This document shows, piece by piece, positions 7,947-53,633 of a stretch of DNA of 63,189 bases (its first letter is position 1; every line of letters starts with the position of its first letter). The DNA is from Candidatus Aegiribacteria sp. Its GTDB lineage: Bacteria > Fermentibacterota > Fermentibacteria > Fermentibacterales > JCC-6. The stretch spans positions 1-63,189 of the forward strand of contig JAGLOY010000016.1 in assembly GCA_023138735.1 (NCBI GenBank). The letters run 5' to 3'. The position numbers and the translations under genes were made by a program. The notes below the pieces were generated by a model. That model saw nothing but the letters and a program-made list of their open reading frames with translations. It did not search any database and was not told where the DNA came from.

Positions 7947-9266
7947 ATGACGCTCAGTAAGAAACCTCTCAAGGGCATGAGAGAGCTAACGCCCGCTGAG
8001 AAGAGGGTTGAGGATTATATTGTCGGAAAATTACGGGAAGCGGGGGCTGTGTACGGTTTCGAGGAGTACGAGACACCCGTTCTTGAGCCCCTTGAGCTTT
8101 TCCTGGCAAAATCCGGCAACGAACTGGCTGTCAAGCAGAGTTATAATTTTCCTGATAAGGGCGGCAGGAAGCTGATAATGAGGCCGGAGCTCACACCTTC
8201 CCTCGCCAGGATGGTGGCCGCTGCAGGGGAGCTTATTTACCCGGTCAAGTGGATGTCATTTCCGGTCTGCTACAGGTACGAGAGACCCCAGCGCGGAAGA
8301 GTTCGCGAATTCATGCAGTTCAACCTGGATATACTTGGGGTTTCCGGTCTTGATGCCGAGCTTGAAGTGTTTCTTGTACTGAGGAGAATCATGAACAGTC
8401 TGGGCGCCAGCCCGGGTCAGTACATTATCCGCTACTCCAGCAGGAGACTTGCCTCAGAAATTCTAAGCAGCTGCGGTATGACTGAAGAGGAAATGGCTCA
8501 GGCTTATGCGGTGATCGACAAAAAGGACAAGTTGAAGCCTGATGAATGGGAGGAACTGGTCCGGGAAACTGTAAAGAACGAACGGAACGCGGATACTGTT
8601 ATGAAGTTCGCGTCGTGCAGCGATCCGGATTCGTCCTGGCTACGCGAAACAGCTGGCGGCAGCGAAGCCTATGACGAGCTTGTTAAATTCAGCGGAATGC
8701 TGAAGTATGCAGGTATTACTGAAGCACAGTTCGATGCAGGCGTTGTGCGGGGTCTTGATTATTACACTGGAATAGTCTTTGAGGTTTCGGACACTGGAAG
8801 TAAAAACCGGAGGGCGATCTGCGGGGGAGGAAGGTACGATAATCTGGTGGGTATGTTCGGCGGTCAGAAGGTAACCGGAGTTGGATTCGGGCTTGGATTG
8901 CTGACCCTTGAATTGTTCCTGAAAACCTACGATCTTATACCTGGTGGTATTTCCGGTAAACATCCCGTTGATATTTTCCTCGCTGTGTATTCCGATGAAG
9001 AGAGAACCTTTGCTGTGAACCTTGCGGAAAAGCTGCGGAACGCAGGTGTCTCGGTTGAAATAGATATCACAGGTAAGAACCTCTCAAAGCAGTTCAAGAT
9101 TGCCGATAGAAAATTAATCGGATACGTCGCGGTTATCGGCCCTGTGGAAGCCGCTTCAGGGCGAATTACACTTAAAAATATGATTTCGGGCACTGAAACT
9201 GAGTGTGAAGTCTCAGAGGTTCCGGGAATCCTGATTGAGGGGAACCTGTGCGAGGAGGCGAATTGA
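7947..9266 (+). CDS. hisS: Histidine-tRNA ligase
   Basis: A class II aminoacyl-tRNA synthetase of 439 residues that charges tRNA-His. Motif 2 is visible around CYRYERPQRGRVREFMQFN, the histidine-A motif is RGLDYYTGIVFEV, and motif 3 follows in CGGGRYDNLVGMFGG. A C-terminal anticodon-binding domain starts near residue 340. A Shine-Dalgarno (GGAGGAG) precedes the ATG. The stop overlaps the start of the SpoIIE-type phosphatase gene in TTGA. The sequence YDFxxxG-type N-terminus (GMRELTP) is as expected. Confidence 0.95.
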   Translation: MTLSKKPLKGMRELTPAEKRVEDYIVGKLREAGAVYGFEEYETPVLEPLELFLAKSGNELAVKQSYNFPDKGGRKLIMRPELTPSLARMVAAAGELIYPVKWMSFPVCYRYERPQRGRVREFMQFNLDILGVSGLDAELEVFLVLRRIMNSLGASPGQYIIRYSSRRLASEILSSCGMTEEEMAQAYAVIDKKDKLKPDEWEELVRETVKNERNADTVMKFASCSDPDSSWLRETAGGSEAYDELVKFSGMLKYAGITEAQFDAGVVRGLDYYTGIVFEVSDTGSKNRRAICGGGRYDNLVGMFGGQKVTGVGFGLGLLTLELFLKTYDLIPGGISGKHPVDIFLAVYSDEERTFAVNLAEKLRNAGVSVEIDITGKNLSKQFKIADRKLIGYVAVIGPVEAASGRITLKNMISGTETECEVSEVPGILIEGNLCEEAN

Positions 9267-30086: not shown

Positions 30087-30821
30087 CTAGAATGTAGCTT
30101 TAATCGCACCCCATGTCGACTGCTGAAGAGCAGATGTACCCCACATGAAACCGAGAATGTTCTCCCAGAGCGGAACGCTTTCATTAGCGTATGCAGGAGT
30201 ATATCCACTGATGACACTGTGCCCATCGTTAGCAACACAGATACCAGCTTGCCCTGCAGCTGGTGAGGCTGTCCAACCGGTTACGGGAACTGCATCCGAA
30301 ACGGTAAACATTGCGTTCAGGATACCAAGACCTGGATCAGCCCAACCCCAATCGGAGATTCCATCTGTGATAGGATGTCCTGGATCCCAGTCATAGTGAG
30401 GAATAACCGGAGCACCGAAACCTGTGTACCCGGTGACACCCATGTTGTTTGCAAGAGTACCCTGACCGGCAGTTCCGGAAGACCACTGCCACGTTGATGC
30501 GAAGATCCTTGCTGCACCGGTGTCGTAAAGATCGATGACACCTCCCCAGTACAGATCGTTGCCATTAGCGTACCAGGATTCAATAACGATTATATCCCAA
30601 CCCGCACCAAGCCCGTCCAACGCGGAATTAAAAGCAGCCTGCTGTCCGCCGGGTTCACCTGAGTAGGCTTCTATGTTTGCAGATGGCCAAAGGTTGCCTG
30701 CTGCGACTTGAGACGCAGTTCCGAAACCGGCAGTTTCATCGTAGTAGATGAGAACATTAGCAGGATCCTGGGCACCTGCTACAGCGATAAGTACCAGTAT
30801 TGAACAAACAAGAAACTTCAT
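30087..30821 (-). CDS. Secreted ThuA/GATase-like protein with STWGAIK C-terminal tail
   Basis: A 244-residue exported protein with signal MKFLVCSILVLIAVAGAQ. The mature part begins with a strand-turn pattern (ANVLIYYDETAG, then GWDIIVIESWYANG and ARIFASTWQWSS) like the glutamine-amidotransferase-like or ThuA-like fold, but no catalytic Cys-His pair is clear. The C-terminus is LQQSTWGAIKATF. This tail recurs in the UGA-containing paralogues at 51272 and 51926, so it is probably a shared surface or processing signal. It has a good promoter and a strong terminator and seems to be a single-gene unit. Confidence 0.7.
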   Translation of the reverse strand: MKFLVCSILVLIAVAGAQDPANVLIYYDETAGFGTASQVAAGNLWPSANIEAYSGEPGGQQAAFNSALDGLGAGWDIIVIESWYANGNDLYWGGVIDLYDTGAARIFASTWQWSSGTAGQGTLANNMGVTGYTGFGAPVIPHYDWDPGHPITDGISDWGWADPGLGILNAMFTVSDAVPVTGWTASPAAGQAGICVANDGHSVISGYTPAYANESVPLWENILGFMWGTSALQQSTWGAIKATF

Positions 30822-49854: not shown

Positions 49855-51069
49855 TCACGATTCTATTAAAACGGTATCGTACCAGAGACGGTATTCTTTT
49901 CCTCTGAAAGTTTTTCTCTGCTCTTCAATGAGGCTTGTGTACTGATAATTCTGAGATTCAGGAGCCTCAGAGCTCACATACCGACGATGCAGAACCTGCC
50001 TGCCGTCTGAACTGTAGAAACTTTCAGCCGGCGTACCATTCTCCCATCCCCAGAATACTGCAAGAGAACGTCCGTACCTCTTATCTCCGATTGTCAGATC
50101 CACGACACGGGCACTGTAATCCTTGTTTTCTCCTGATAAATAGGACGAAGGGAATAACTCATTCATGAACCTTGTTCGGGGATAAGTTTCATCTGCCGTT
50201 ACCCTCATGACCCAGTCGAATCCCTGATTGGTGGAGTTGAAGTAATCAAGGATATTCGGCTCGGGAGGCTCACAATCGGAGTGTTCAATAAGAACTTCGT
50301 AGCATTCCTTATCCTGGATATTCACCTTTCGGACTACCTGCGATTGAACTGTCTGTGTTAAAACTCCTCCCGGGTAGTCGAAAAACCTGCAAACCTCGAT
50401 ATGACCTGTTTCAAGAACCGTTCCGAAGTAAAGCCCCGGTCCTGTAGTGAGGATTTCCATTTCCTCATCCGGGAGTTCCTCTATCAGTATATGCGGTACG
50501 ATTTTTACCGGCTCTGCACTTCTTCCTATTCTGGACATTCTCAATACCTCTTTCTTCATTTTTACTCTGCTCTCCCACAGACGGCGTTTAACCGTACCCA
50601 GTGGAATGCGGAGTCTCAGGGCAACCTGCTTCTGAGAGTAACTGGAGAGGTAGGTCAGACGCGCTGTCTCCCGCAGCTTCGAGGAGAGTCTGGACAAAGC
50701 CAGCAGAGCCAGTTCCGTACGAGGATCTGTATCATCAGCGCTATAATCCACGGCATTGCTATACTCATCACTGATATGATGCTCACTCAGCATAATAAAC
50801 CTTTGATCTCTGCTGAGTCTGTTACGTGCTATATTCAGGGCGATCTGCCGTACCCAGCCGCCGAAACTGTAAGGTGCCCTCAGGGTTGACAGCTTCAGAA
50901 AACTTCTCAAAAAGGCTTCCTGAGCAACATCCTCTGCGTCATGTATGCTGCCCATCAAACCGGTTAACTCCGATACTATTCCCGTCCGGCAGCGTCCCAC
51001 CAGATCATTGAAAGCGGATATCTCACCGGTCTGAGCAGCTCTTATTAGTTTTTCGTCTGAATTATCCAT
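49855..51069 (-). CDS. ECF-like RNA polymerase sigma factor with long C-terminal extension
   Basis: A 404-residue sigma factor. Region 2 (about residues 15-85: DLVGRCRTGIVSELTGLM, then DAEDVAQEAFLRSFLKLSTL) and region 4 (about 115-170: LSSKLRETARLTYLSSYSQK, QVALRLRIPLGTVKRRLWES) are clear. About 230 additional residues follow that I do not recognise (FGTVLETGHIEVCRFFDYPG, WVMRVTADETYPRTRFM), probably a sensory or regulatory part. I choose ATG 51069, five bases after GGAGG, over an upstream one. It is divergent from the UGA-containing paralogues and could regulate them. Confidence 0.82.
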   Translation of the reverse strand: MDNSDEKLIRAAQTGEISAFNDLVGRCRTGIVSELTGLMGSIHDAEDVAQEAFLRSFLKLSTLRAPYSFGGWVRQIALNIARNRLSRDQRFIMLSEHHISDEYSNAVDYSADDTDPRTELALLALSRLSSKLRETARLTYLSSYSQKQVALRLRIPLGTVKRRLWESRVKMKKEVLRMSRIGRSAEPVKIVPHILIEELPDEEMEILTTGPGLYFGTVLETGHIEVCRFFDYPGGVLTQTVQSQVVRKVNIQDKECYEVLIEHSDCEPPEPNILDYFNSTNQGFDWVMRVTADETYPRTRFMNELFPSSYLSGENKDYSARVVDLTIGDKRYGRSLAVFWGWENGTPAESFYSSDGRQVLHRRYVSSEAPESQNYQYTSLIEEQRKTFRGKEYRLWYDTVLIES

Positions 51070-51150
51070 CATTTCCTCCATCCTACACTCAATCAACCCG
51101 GGAATATTATAAAGGTTCGGTTGTATTCAGGGATAACTCGAGATTGAATC

Positions 51151-51271: not shown

Positions 51272-51919
51272 ATGAAGTACATTCTGTTCCTGCCACTTAT
51301 GGGATTACTCACTCTAGCTCTGTCTGCTGACATTATTATAGGACCTGCCGACGGTCCGGCATCAAGCTATCCCTTCTGCGGATCTTGATTCGATGCCATG
51401 CGCTACCAGGTGGTAGTGCTTGACGAAGAGATCGGGTCGGATTTTGACATAAGTTCCATTGCCTGGCAGAAGCACCCCGCCGGGGACGCTTCCGCAGAAT
51501 TCAGTACATTTAAGATCTACATGGGTCTCTGTTCAGAGGACCAGCTGGGCTCGATCTTCGATGACAATTACATCACCGGGACAAGAACGCTTGTCTACGA
51601 ATCATCATCTCAGGTCATGTCCGGGGGCATAGACGAATGGGTATCCATCCTGCTTGATACTGATTATCAGTACGATTCCTCCGAGGGTAACCTGATCATC
51701 GAAGTTACCTGGGTTAGCCCTGTGGATAGCAATAGTTTCTATTCCCGCAGCTGGGATGCCGGAACAATAAGGGCTGTCGGGTACACGCAGGCTGGAGCCC
51801 CGACCCAGCCAACCGGCAGTCTCTCCAGCTCGCTGCCAAGGCTGACGATTACAGGCAGTGCCGGAGGAGCATTGGAATCTCTGACGTTCGGAGCCGTGAA
51901 GTCCATGGACTGGAGGTAG
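51272..51919 (+). CDS. Secreted protein with in-frame UGA at codon 39 (paralogue 1)
   Basis: From ATG 51272, preceded by AAGGAGGG, the frame encodes a signal peptide (MKYILFLPLMGLLTLALSA) and a short mature start ending FCGS before TGA at 51386-51388 (codon 39). The same frame then stays open for 176 more codons, beginning FDAMRYQVVVLDEEIG, to TAG. If the UGA is read, the product is 215 residues, beta-rich, ending in LTFGAVKSMDWR. The second paralogue is interrupted at the homologous codon. A hairpin follows the UGA at a SECIS-like distance. Read as a normal stop, it would leave a short exported peptide and an orphan 173-residue frame. Function is unknown. Confidence 0.7.
51400..51419 (+). 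promoter_or_regulatory. SECIS-like hairpin after UGA of paralogue 1
   Basis: GCGCTACC pairs with GGTAGTGC (8 bp, one G-T wobble) around the loop AGGT. The loop begins 19 nt after the UGA. The spacing, stem length and G at loop position 2 fall within the bacterial SECIS ranges described for selenoprotein genes. Confidence 0.5.
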
Positions 51920-51925
51920 CCGCAA

Positions 51926-52561
51926 ATGAAGAGCGTATTATTTCTGCTGCTCGCTATCTCTTTCCTTTGCTTATCCGCAGAAGTGACAGTTGGTGATCCG
52001 GAGGAATCCGGCTGCGCACCTATCGGAATCGGTTGAAGCTCTTCTCTGCACTACCAGGCGGTAGTGCTTGATGAGGAGATTGGTGACGCGATGGACATAG
52101 CTGCAATTTCCTGCCAGCGCTATTCACCGGGAGATACCGTAGAGGGAACGTTCTACGATTTCAGCATTTACCTTGCCCTGTCCGATCAGGACGTGGTCGG
52201 TTCCACTTTCACCGAGAACTATATCGCTGGGACAAGGATCTGCGTCTTCTCGAGGGATACGATGACCATCTCGAATTCGCCGTACGATTGGGTCCAATTC
52301 GACCTGGACACACCATTCTGGTTCAACGGCGCCGATAACCTTATAGTCGAGTTCCTCTGGAGCACTGCCGAAACCGAAGACAACTGCATGTACACATGGC
52401 ACTGGAACACTGGAACTGTCAGGTCCATCAACGGGGAATACGGAAGCACGACAGGATCGATGTCCAGCCTTGTTATCATGTTCATTTTCGGTGGAGAGAT
52501 GCAGCTGGACAGCTCCACCTTCGGCAGTATAAAGGCTTTGCTTGGAAGTTCCGGCGGTTAA
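51926..52561 (+). CDS. Secreted protein with in-frame UGA at codon 37 (paralogue 2)
   Basis: ATG 51926 has GGAGG 9 bases upstream and follows the first paralogue by 6 bases, so the two are cotranscribed. A signal peptide (MKSVLFLLLAISFLCLSA) is followed by a short segment ending APIGIG and TGA at 52034-52036 (codon 37). The frame then continues without stops for 174 codons from SSSLHYQAVVLDEEIG to SSTFGSIKALLGSSGG and TAA. If the UGA is decoded, the product is about 211 residues and aligns along its length with paralogue 1 (YQ-x-VVLDEEIG, then NYI-x-GTR). Function is unknown; it is likely extracytoplasmic. Confidence 0.7.
52048..52067 (+). promoter_or_regulatory. SECIS-like hairpin after UGA of paralogue 2
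   Basis: GCACTACC pairs with GGTAGTGC in 8 perfect base pairs around the loop AGGC. The loop begins 19 nt after the UGA, exactly as in paralogue 1. Position 3 of the stem is A here and G there, and both pair with the opposite T, by Watson-Crick or wobble. Confidence 0.5.
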
Positions 52562-52571
52562 ACCGTATAGT

Positions 52572-53633
52572 TTACCTAAGCAGAACGAACCTGAACGTCT
52601 CTACCTGTTCGGAGTACCTCAGATATGCGGTGTAGATACCCGGTGGGCCGCTGAAACCGAAGGTACTCTCACCTGAAGCAAGCTGACCGTTATGCAGCAC
52701 TTCCATAAGTCTTCCGGACAGATCGAATACCTCAAGCAGTATCTGTGCAGGATCGTTGATGTTAACAGCCAGAGAAGCAGAGCCTGTGGAAGGGTTAGCA
52801 GCAGTACTTATATGTCCGGTCTGGTATGTTTCTGCGGCAGGATCGTCCTCAATACCCCCGAACACCGGTATCATCAGCCTGCTAATGTAGTACTCGTCAT
52901 CCTGCCCCTTGTAGCTCCAGTAGACATATCCATTAATACCCCATGCAAGACCCAGTGATTCTGATACGGGAACGGGGCAGGGTTCCTGGCCGTACTGTGT
53001 GTATGTAGCACCTGCGTTGTGGTAGAAGAAAAACTCATGACCGAACCTGGTTGTAATTATCAGACCGGATGGAGGAAAATCAAGTGTTGCAATCAGGTGT
53101 CCCATGAAACCGCTGATCTCACCGTTCACACCCGGCAGTCCATATGTATCGTAACTGGAACCATCAGGTGTAATGTAGTAGAACTGGTAAGGGCTTGAAG
53201 CGGCTGCCTCGCATAGATCGGGGAACATATTATCATTAAAATCCATACCTGCACCGCCTGTTGCCGCTGGATTGGGAAATTCGCTCCATGTGTCTGATCC
53301 GTCGGAGTAAAATATCATCGGTGAAGTGGAACTGTTGATGTAATACATTCCCTGGCTTGCAGCTACTCCAAAACCATCCGAACCTGCCGGAAGCGCAATC
53401 TCTCCCTGATATTCGCAATTGCCTGGATTTGCCAGAAAGAGTTTACCGTCGGCATTACTTCGGATTATCAGGTAACCCGTGCCCCAGTCTATGGCGATGT
53501 CCTGTATCTCCAGGGCGTAGGGTATCTGCCATGTTTCCTCAACAACGATTGGAATGTATGGGAAGTCGGGAACCTGAACTTCAGCTTCGATTGTTTCGGA
53601 AAAACATGTAAGAACTAAAAATAGATTTAACAT
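52572..53633 (-). CDS. Secreted beta-propeller-like protein with C-terminal sorting domain
   Basis: A 353-residue exported protein with a short signal (MLNLFLVLTCFSETIEA). Beta-rich repeats such as IQDIAIDWGTGYLIIRSNAD and GYVYWSYKGQDDEYYISRLM suggest a propeller. The last 75 residues are a type IX-like sorting domain (ANPSTGSASLAVNI, LLEVFDLSGRLMEV, PPGIYTAYLRYSEQVETFRF) ending in VLLR. It is convergent with paralogue 2, 10 bases away. A GGAG-containing leader precedes the ATG. Confidence 0.7.
   Translation of the reverse strand: MLNLFLVLTCFSETIEAEVQVPDFPYIPIVVEETWQIPYALEIQDIAIDWGTGYLIIRSNADGKLFLANPGNCEYQGEIALPAGSDGFGVAASQGMYYINSSTSPMIFYSDGSDTWSEFPNPAATGGAGMDFNDNMFPDLCEAAASSPYQFYYITPDGSSYDTYGLPGVNGEISGFMGHLIATLDFPPSGLIITTRFGHEFFFYHNAGATYTQYGQEPCPVPVSESLGLAWGINGYVYWSYKGQDDEYYISRLMIPVFGGIEDDPAAETYQTGHISTAANPSTGSASLAVNINDPAQILLEVFDLSGRLMEVLHNGQLASGESTFGFSGPPGIYTAYLRYSEQVETFRFVLLR

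Follow-up and report, generated by a model that had tools for sequence, protein, structure and literature searches.

The closest described systems to the genes considered here are the bacterial selenoproteins whose SECIS element lies within the gene and which are made through the SelA/SelB/SelC/SelD pathway. In the available part of a 2026 catalogue there are 119 prokaryotic selenoprotein families and subfamilies, and most of the selenoproteins so far characterised adopt a thioredoxin-like fold (PMC13188914). The bacterial SECIS model given in the same part is a hairpin with a loop of 3–9 nt, a stem of 4–16 bp and a G in the first two bases of the loop, situated at a spacing of 16–37 nt after the UGA (PMC13188914). 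There are two further points of comparison: the thioredoxin-like selenoproteins (Trx, Prx, Grx, DsbA-like), which have a Cys near the selenocysteine (Sec), often as C-x-x-U; and the TonB-dependent receptor of the FCYXU motif type (NF049945), which has a C-x-x-U motif and, by its name, an envelope location.

The DNA analysed here (the window) is a stretch of 63,189 nucleotides from Candidatus Aegiribacteria sp., in which two adjacent genes each contain an in-frame UGA. The original prediction described these genes as tandem secreted paralogues with the UGA at the homologous codon, each with its own Shine–Dalgarno sequence and ATG, and with about 175 codons open past the UGA; its coordinates were exact. 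The features of the pair are:

51272..51919, + strand: gene 1, predicted exported selenoprotein of 215 residues, Sec at codon 39, motif C-G-S-U
51272..51325, + strand: signal-peptide-like N-terminus of gene 1, approximate extent, from sequence reading
51386..51388, + strand: in-frame UGA of gene 1, read as selenocysteine
51400..51419, + strand: hairpin of gene 1, GCGCUACC-AGGU-GGUAGUGC, loop at 51408-51411, 19 nt after the UGA
51884..51901, + strand: tail motif TFGAVK of gene 1, candidate sorting tag
51926..52561, + strand: gene 2, tandem paralogue of 211 residues, Sec at codon 37, motif G-I-G-U
51926..51979, + strand: signal-peptide-like N-terminus of gene 2, approximate extent, from sequence reading
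52034..52036, + strand: in-frame UGA of gene 2, read as selenocysteine
52048..52067, + strand: hairpin of gene 2, GCACUACC-AGGC-GGUAGUGC, loop at 52056-52059, 19 nt after the UGA
52517..52534, + strand: tail motif TFGSIK of gene 2, candidate sorting tag

The TGA is followed by 176 open codons and a TAG stop in gene 1, and by 174 open codons and a TAA stop in gene 2. The Shine–Dalgarno sequence of gene 1 is AAGGAGGG, upstream of its ATG; that of gene 2 is GGAGG, upstream of its own ATG and located within the final codons of gene 1. The two proteins are 36% identical, and their UGA codons are aligned. UGA had also been named as a normal stop of other genes in the window, and TGA does end genes at 714-716 and 9264-9266. 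Further frames that could be joined across a TGA exist in the window.

A search with both window proteins revealed nine members of the family in the window's own genome (an assembly of 3.22 Mb in 192 contigs, 91% complete), the weakest with E 1.9e-24. At the position of the window UGAs, eight of the nine carry an in-frame TGA and L022 carries a Cys codon, which bears out the view that the pair in the window did not arise by chance. In L021 there is a second in-frame TGA, which is best read as the true stop, because its position is where other members end. Across the window's phylum, 41 of 42 genomes have family matches (E 0.001 or better; that of G024, E 3.3e-4, is weak), with many paralogues per genome and a size of about 200 residues. 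Among named loci, 33 of 34 carry the names Candidatus Aegiribacteria, Fermentibacteria, Fermentibacterales, Fermentibacter daniensis, Sabulitectum or candidate division Hyd24-12. A weak, 47-residue match to the family is also present in a viral-contig record (L268).

From the 196 matches in the phylum, 154 distinct rows were read (157 including duplicates), 147 of which cover the codon in question: it is TGA in 134, TGC in 10, TGT in 3, and no other codon in any. The seven rows without the codon are those that meet a contig end (L033, L091, L101, L127) or are fragments (L116, L144, L156); L144 and L156 are family members that appear to be broken or frame-shifted. The residue of the homologues at this position, which the original prediction had proposed to record, is thus encoded by UGA (134) or is Cys (13) and is nothing else, which speaks for Sec and against readthrough as Trp. 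In 46 of the 134 UGA genes the first stop past the UGA is again TGA, so that a single gene uses UGA both for Sec and for termination. TGA is also the stop of 11 of 28 long window ORFs (picked by hand).

In both window genes, a perfect stem of 8 bp starts 11 nt after the UGA. In the family as a whole, 131 of 134 UGA genes, but none of the 13 Cys genes, have a stem of at least 6 bp; when the same proteins were re-coded randomly with the codon usage of the family (1000 rounds), such a stem was expected by chance in 6.5 of 134 (sd 2.4, maximum 15). The UGA genes that lack such a stem in this register are L052 (4 bp), L089 (1 bp) and L141 (0 bp). The loop is AGGU in 108 of the 134 UGA genes, and the distance from UGA to loop is 19 nt in 102 and 22 nt in 32. 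Counting from the loop, pair 2 is C-G in 88 of 134 and U-A in 43 of 134, and a tree made without the hairpin codons shows 11 changes for each of its two sides. On well-supported branches, four of five independent contrasts at this pair agree and none is against (p 0.125, which is not significant alone); agreement is about 1.5 of 3 at pair 4 and about 0.4 of 4 at pair 6, again with none against, the remainder being without a difference on the other side. The hairpins of the window and of the family lie within the published bacterial SECIS model, as it stands in the available part of the paper (PMC13188914).

The machinery to be expected for Sec, which the original prediction had proposed to look for, is all present in the window's genome (selA, selB, selD and tRNA-Sec), the tRNA-Sec gene being cut by a contig end. 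The scores are 513.8 bits for selA, 327.9 for selB and 317.9 for selD, all above the cut-off. The selA and selB genes are adjacent on one contig, and directly ahead of them are what we take, from a reading of the translations, to be Rnf electron-transport genes (L016 8350-15652, − strand). The selD gene (L027, G000:C162:13869-14792) has one in-frame TGA, which is known for Sec-containing SelD. Of the tRNA-Sec gene, the last 19 bases are found at the end of contig C163 (8584-8602 of 8602; E 0.006), where they were detected with the tRNA-Sec of a relative as DNA query, and the sequence behind this fragment resembles that behind the tRNA-Sec gene of the relative. The best Rfam match for tRNA-Sec in the window's genome, although above the Rfam cut-off, was rejected, as it is a tRNA-Ser with anticodon CGA.

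Among the 42 genomes of the phylum, a whole tRNA-Sec is present in 36 (68 to 76 bits, with stricter filters than in the Rfam scan of the window's genome) and was not found in six, one of them the window's genome with its partial gene; the anticodon is TCA in all 12 that were examined with ARAGORN. The selA gene is present in 37 of the 42 (35 above the cut-off), including 24 of 24 genomes that are at least 90% complete. The five genomes in which selA was not found are all at most 80% complete, and G002, G006, G017 and G018, which are selA-negative, have UGA members of the family.

By comparison of substitution rates, the codons past the UGA are under purifying selection. With the hairpin excluded, the median dN/dS past the UGA is 0.148 and the range 0.04 to 0.42 in 118 pairs (those of 290 with dS between 0 and 2); in comparisons with orthologues, gene 1 gives 0.167 and gene 2 gives 0.098 and 0.079. 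The constraint for which a Ka/Ks analysis downstream of the UGA had been suggested as a test is therefore found, dN/dS being well below 1. In trees of 143 of the 147 rows, made without an outgroup, the Cys rows are at three places, such that three changes are needed, at least two of which are forced by well-supported branches.

The family is also present in a second phylum. One named match is in a metagenome-assembled genome (MAG) titled Candidatus Zixiibacteriota, which has 27 matches, 11 with TGA and 16 without. In the phylum of this MAG, 11 of 14 genomes have matches, and every one of the 11 has a TGA in at least one match; selA is present in all 11 of these, and in one of the three without matches. 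In the loci fetched from the second phylum, 42 UGA genes were read. Their hairpin mostly has a loop of 3 nt with G as its first base, at a distance of 20 to 24 nt from the UGA, and the stem is of at least 6 bp in 29 of 42 (fewer in 13) versus 3.1 expected (sd 1.6, maximum 10 in 500 rounds). At L221 2363-5281, in the Zixiibacteriota-titled MAG, there are four tandem members, three with UGA and the fourth with Gly. Second-phylum members with neither Sec nor Cys (e.g. in G042) have the same domain by profile and the tail T-S-L-G-R-V-K but, unlike the Sec/Cys family, have other residues at this place (e.g. Gly) and no redox motif. Thus, the superfamily is wider, and only some of its members have the redox residues.

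Upstream of gene 1 is:

49855-51096, − strand: sigma factor (Pfam Sigma70_r2), transcribed divergently from the selenoprotein pair, with a long extension at the C-terminus

No match to this sigma factor was found in the other loci compared, and in L214 a different ORF is upstream of the gene pair; one relative retains the gene downstream (52572-53633), on a contig to which both L033 and L213 belong. Thus, the gene neighbourhood provides no functional context.

The proteins of the family are probably exported: a hydrophobic stretch precedes the UGA in 144 of 146 members tested, and the signal peptide that had been predicted for each window gene agrees with our own reading of the two N-termini. 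In 126 of the 134 UGA members there is a Cys 1–3 residues before the Sec (C-x-x-U, C-x-U or C-U), and in 13 of 13 Cys members there is a further Cys three residues earlier, i.e., the C-x-x-C spacing that is typical of thiol redox centres. Gene 2 is among the eight of 134 UGA members without a Cys within three residues, its nearest upstream Cys being 7 residues from the Sec, so the C-x-x-U reading fits gene 1 better.

An AlphaFold2 model was made of mature gene 1, with both window proteins and 40 others from named loci as its input. This model (mean pLDDT 93.8, pTM 0.88) is nearly all beta, and it places Sec, as residue 22, in a loop that joins the strands at 2-6 and 25-32. In a comparison with folds in the PDB, the best match (3gbw) was weak (E 3.8e-4, TM 0.45); among the best 50 of 1547 matches there were several carbohydrate-binding modules, lower among the weak matches, and no thioredoxin. 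A search of the PDB by sequence gave nothing credible. The nearby Cys that the family has in common with the thioredoxin-like selenoproteins suggests redox chemistry, whereas the nearly all-beta fold of the model, the probable export, the many paralogues and the lack of a thioredoxin among those 50 fold matches set the family apart from them. Similarly, it has in common with NF049945 the C-x-x-U motif and a probable envelope location, but consists of only about 200 residues, and there was no NCBIfam match to NF049945 at E 0.5 or better in 39 members.

Nearly certainly, then, the UGA is recoded as Sec in both window genes, and it is very likely that in both genes this Sec belongs to an exported protein. 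SelB with Sec-tRNA-Sec would bind the hairpin and insert Sec at the UGA, whereupon the ribosome would make the full-length protein; the signal peptide would carry the protein across the inner membrane; and the exported protein would fold as a beta sandwich, in which a loop immediately ahead of predicted strand 2 holds the Sec, mostly preceded by a Cys at a distance of 1 to 3 residues. The Sec would be a selenol/selenenylsulfide redox centre outside the cytoplasm, with thiols, disulfides or reduced sulfur as the most likely substrates, and the conserved tail, T-F-G-x-I-K, may serve to target the protein to the cell surface or to anchor it there.

The original prediction had left a choice between an extracellular selenoprotein and a family with UGA readthrough. 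The Cys partners, the occurrence of the hairpin with UGA but not with Cys, and the presence of the Sec machinery support the former and disfavour the latter. Decoding of the UGA as another residue (Trp, Cys or Gly), through readthrough or a suppressor tRNA, would also account for frames that are open and conserved past the UGA, but is very improbable, given that Cys is the only alternative in 147 rows, that the hairpin accompanies UGA but not Cys, that the Sec machinery is present, that TGA is a stop in 46 of 134 family genes and 11 of 28 window ORFs, and that the tRNA-Trp met in the window's own genome has the anticodon CCA. Genome-wide reassignment of UGA to Trp or Gly was rejected, as TGA still ends those 46 family genes and 11 window ORFs. 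That the UGA is an ordinary stop, followed by pseudogene remnants or giving a short secreted peptide as product, has hardly any probability: UGA does terminate other genes of the window, but 134 genes have it at one codon, dN/dS after it is 0.148, and 13 Cys versions are full length. A reading of the pair as chance or pseudogene was rejected on the codon column, the hairpin statistics and dN/dS. As termination at UGA competes with Sec insertion in general, there could be a selenium-gated dual product, full length with selenium and truncated without it, with both forms used; this is improbable, because the signal peptide is followed by about 20 residues up to the UGA and nothing was seen that favours a function of the fragment.

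For the role of the Sec, rather than its decoding, an extracellular redox function is the reading that we favour with some reserve, on the basis of the motif and the Cys partners. Its main rival, which competes with the redox role only, is that the Sec is real but acts as a soft ligand, for an extracellular metal, metalloid or sulfur species, and not in redox catalysis. Several features would suit a soft ligand: the C-U motif is also found in metal-named selenoproteins in the available part of the catalogue, e.g. SaoL and HgcA (PMC13188914); the predicted scaffold consists almost wholly of beta strands, its weak fold matches including carbohydrate-binding modules; and there are many paralogues per genome. 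However, 13 of 13 Cys members keep the C-x-x-C spacing, and the family is not known to have any other conserved set of ligands; we regard a ligand role as possible but rather unlikely.

Most members end in T-F-G-x-I-K or, where they are from the second phylum, in T-S-L-G-R-V-K. In the complete ORFs of at least 100 codons in the window and all loci, the pattern [TS][FWL][GA]x[IVL]K within the last 16 residues is present in 190 of 2070, of which 175 match the family profile and 15 do not, versus 0.26 expected from ORF interiors. These 15 are:

window 30087-30821, − strand: non-family tail ORF, signal-like N-terminus by eye
L021 49-639, − strand: non-family tail ORF
L205 3718-4371: non-family tail ORF
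L230 2136-2879 and 2876-3394: two non-family tail ORFs
L238 262-1389, − strand: non-family tail ORF
Loci among L158-L177: nine non-family tail ORFs, beside tRNA-Sec

As the last nine are the gene beside tRNA-Sec in relatives, they are not independent of each other. The tails of non-family proteins include STWGAIKATF, TTWGHIKTLMQ and TSLGRVKALF. The C-terminal end of the gene 1 model is of low confidence (pLDDT 62 to 66). The tail is a candidate for a new C-terminal sorting or anchoring tag in two phyla; it was in none of the libraries searched (NCBIfam among them) and in no paper found.

There is much that this family has in common with the known bacterial selenoproteins with an in-gene SECIS: the UGA, the G in the first two loop bases, the spacing of 16–37 nt, the Cys homologues and the full machinery. 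By name, domain and motif, however, none of the 119 families in the available part of the catalogue fits it (PMC13188914; for entries based on cd, PTHR and other models, the comparison covered name and motif). Neither of the window proteins and none of 39 diverse members had a credible match in Pfam or NCBIfam, the best being E 0.0049 in Pfam (a DUF, in one of the 39 members) and E 0.077 in NCBIfam. In the available part of the deep-Sep paper the words Fermentibacter, Hyd24-12 and Zixibacteria do not occur (PMC12013277), and no report of the family was found in the literature among the titles and abstract openings listed, a search whose coverage mostly excluded subscription papers. The decoding of Sec is of a known kind. 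What is new, to the extent tested here, is the protein family together with its exported beta fold and its expansion. Any gene caller that ends a gene at UGA would cut these genes short, a possible reason for the absence of the family from the family libraries searched.

The family would be exported and nearly all-beta, with expansions inside individual genomes, in two phyla that were represented here exclusively by metagenome-assembled genomes. It offers one scaffold that has Sec and Cys versions, with and without a SECIS, and it raises the question of why anaerobes would spend selenium outside the cell. Possibly, although this wider reading is tentative, there is an extracellular selenoproteome in these organisms: up to about ten or more exported, tail-attached Sec paralogues per genome would form a selenium-based redox layer, with switches between Sec and Cys and the SECIS present or absent accordingly. 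If true, this layer would have a new tail, T-W/F-G-x-I-K, in common with other, dissimilar proteins.
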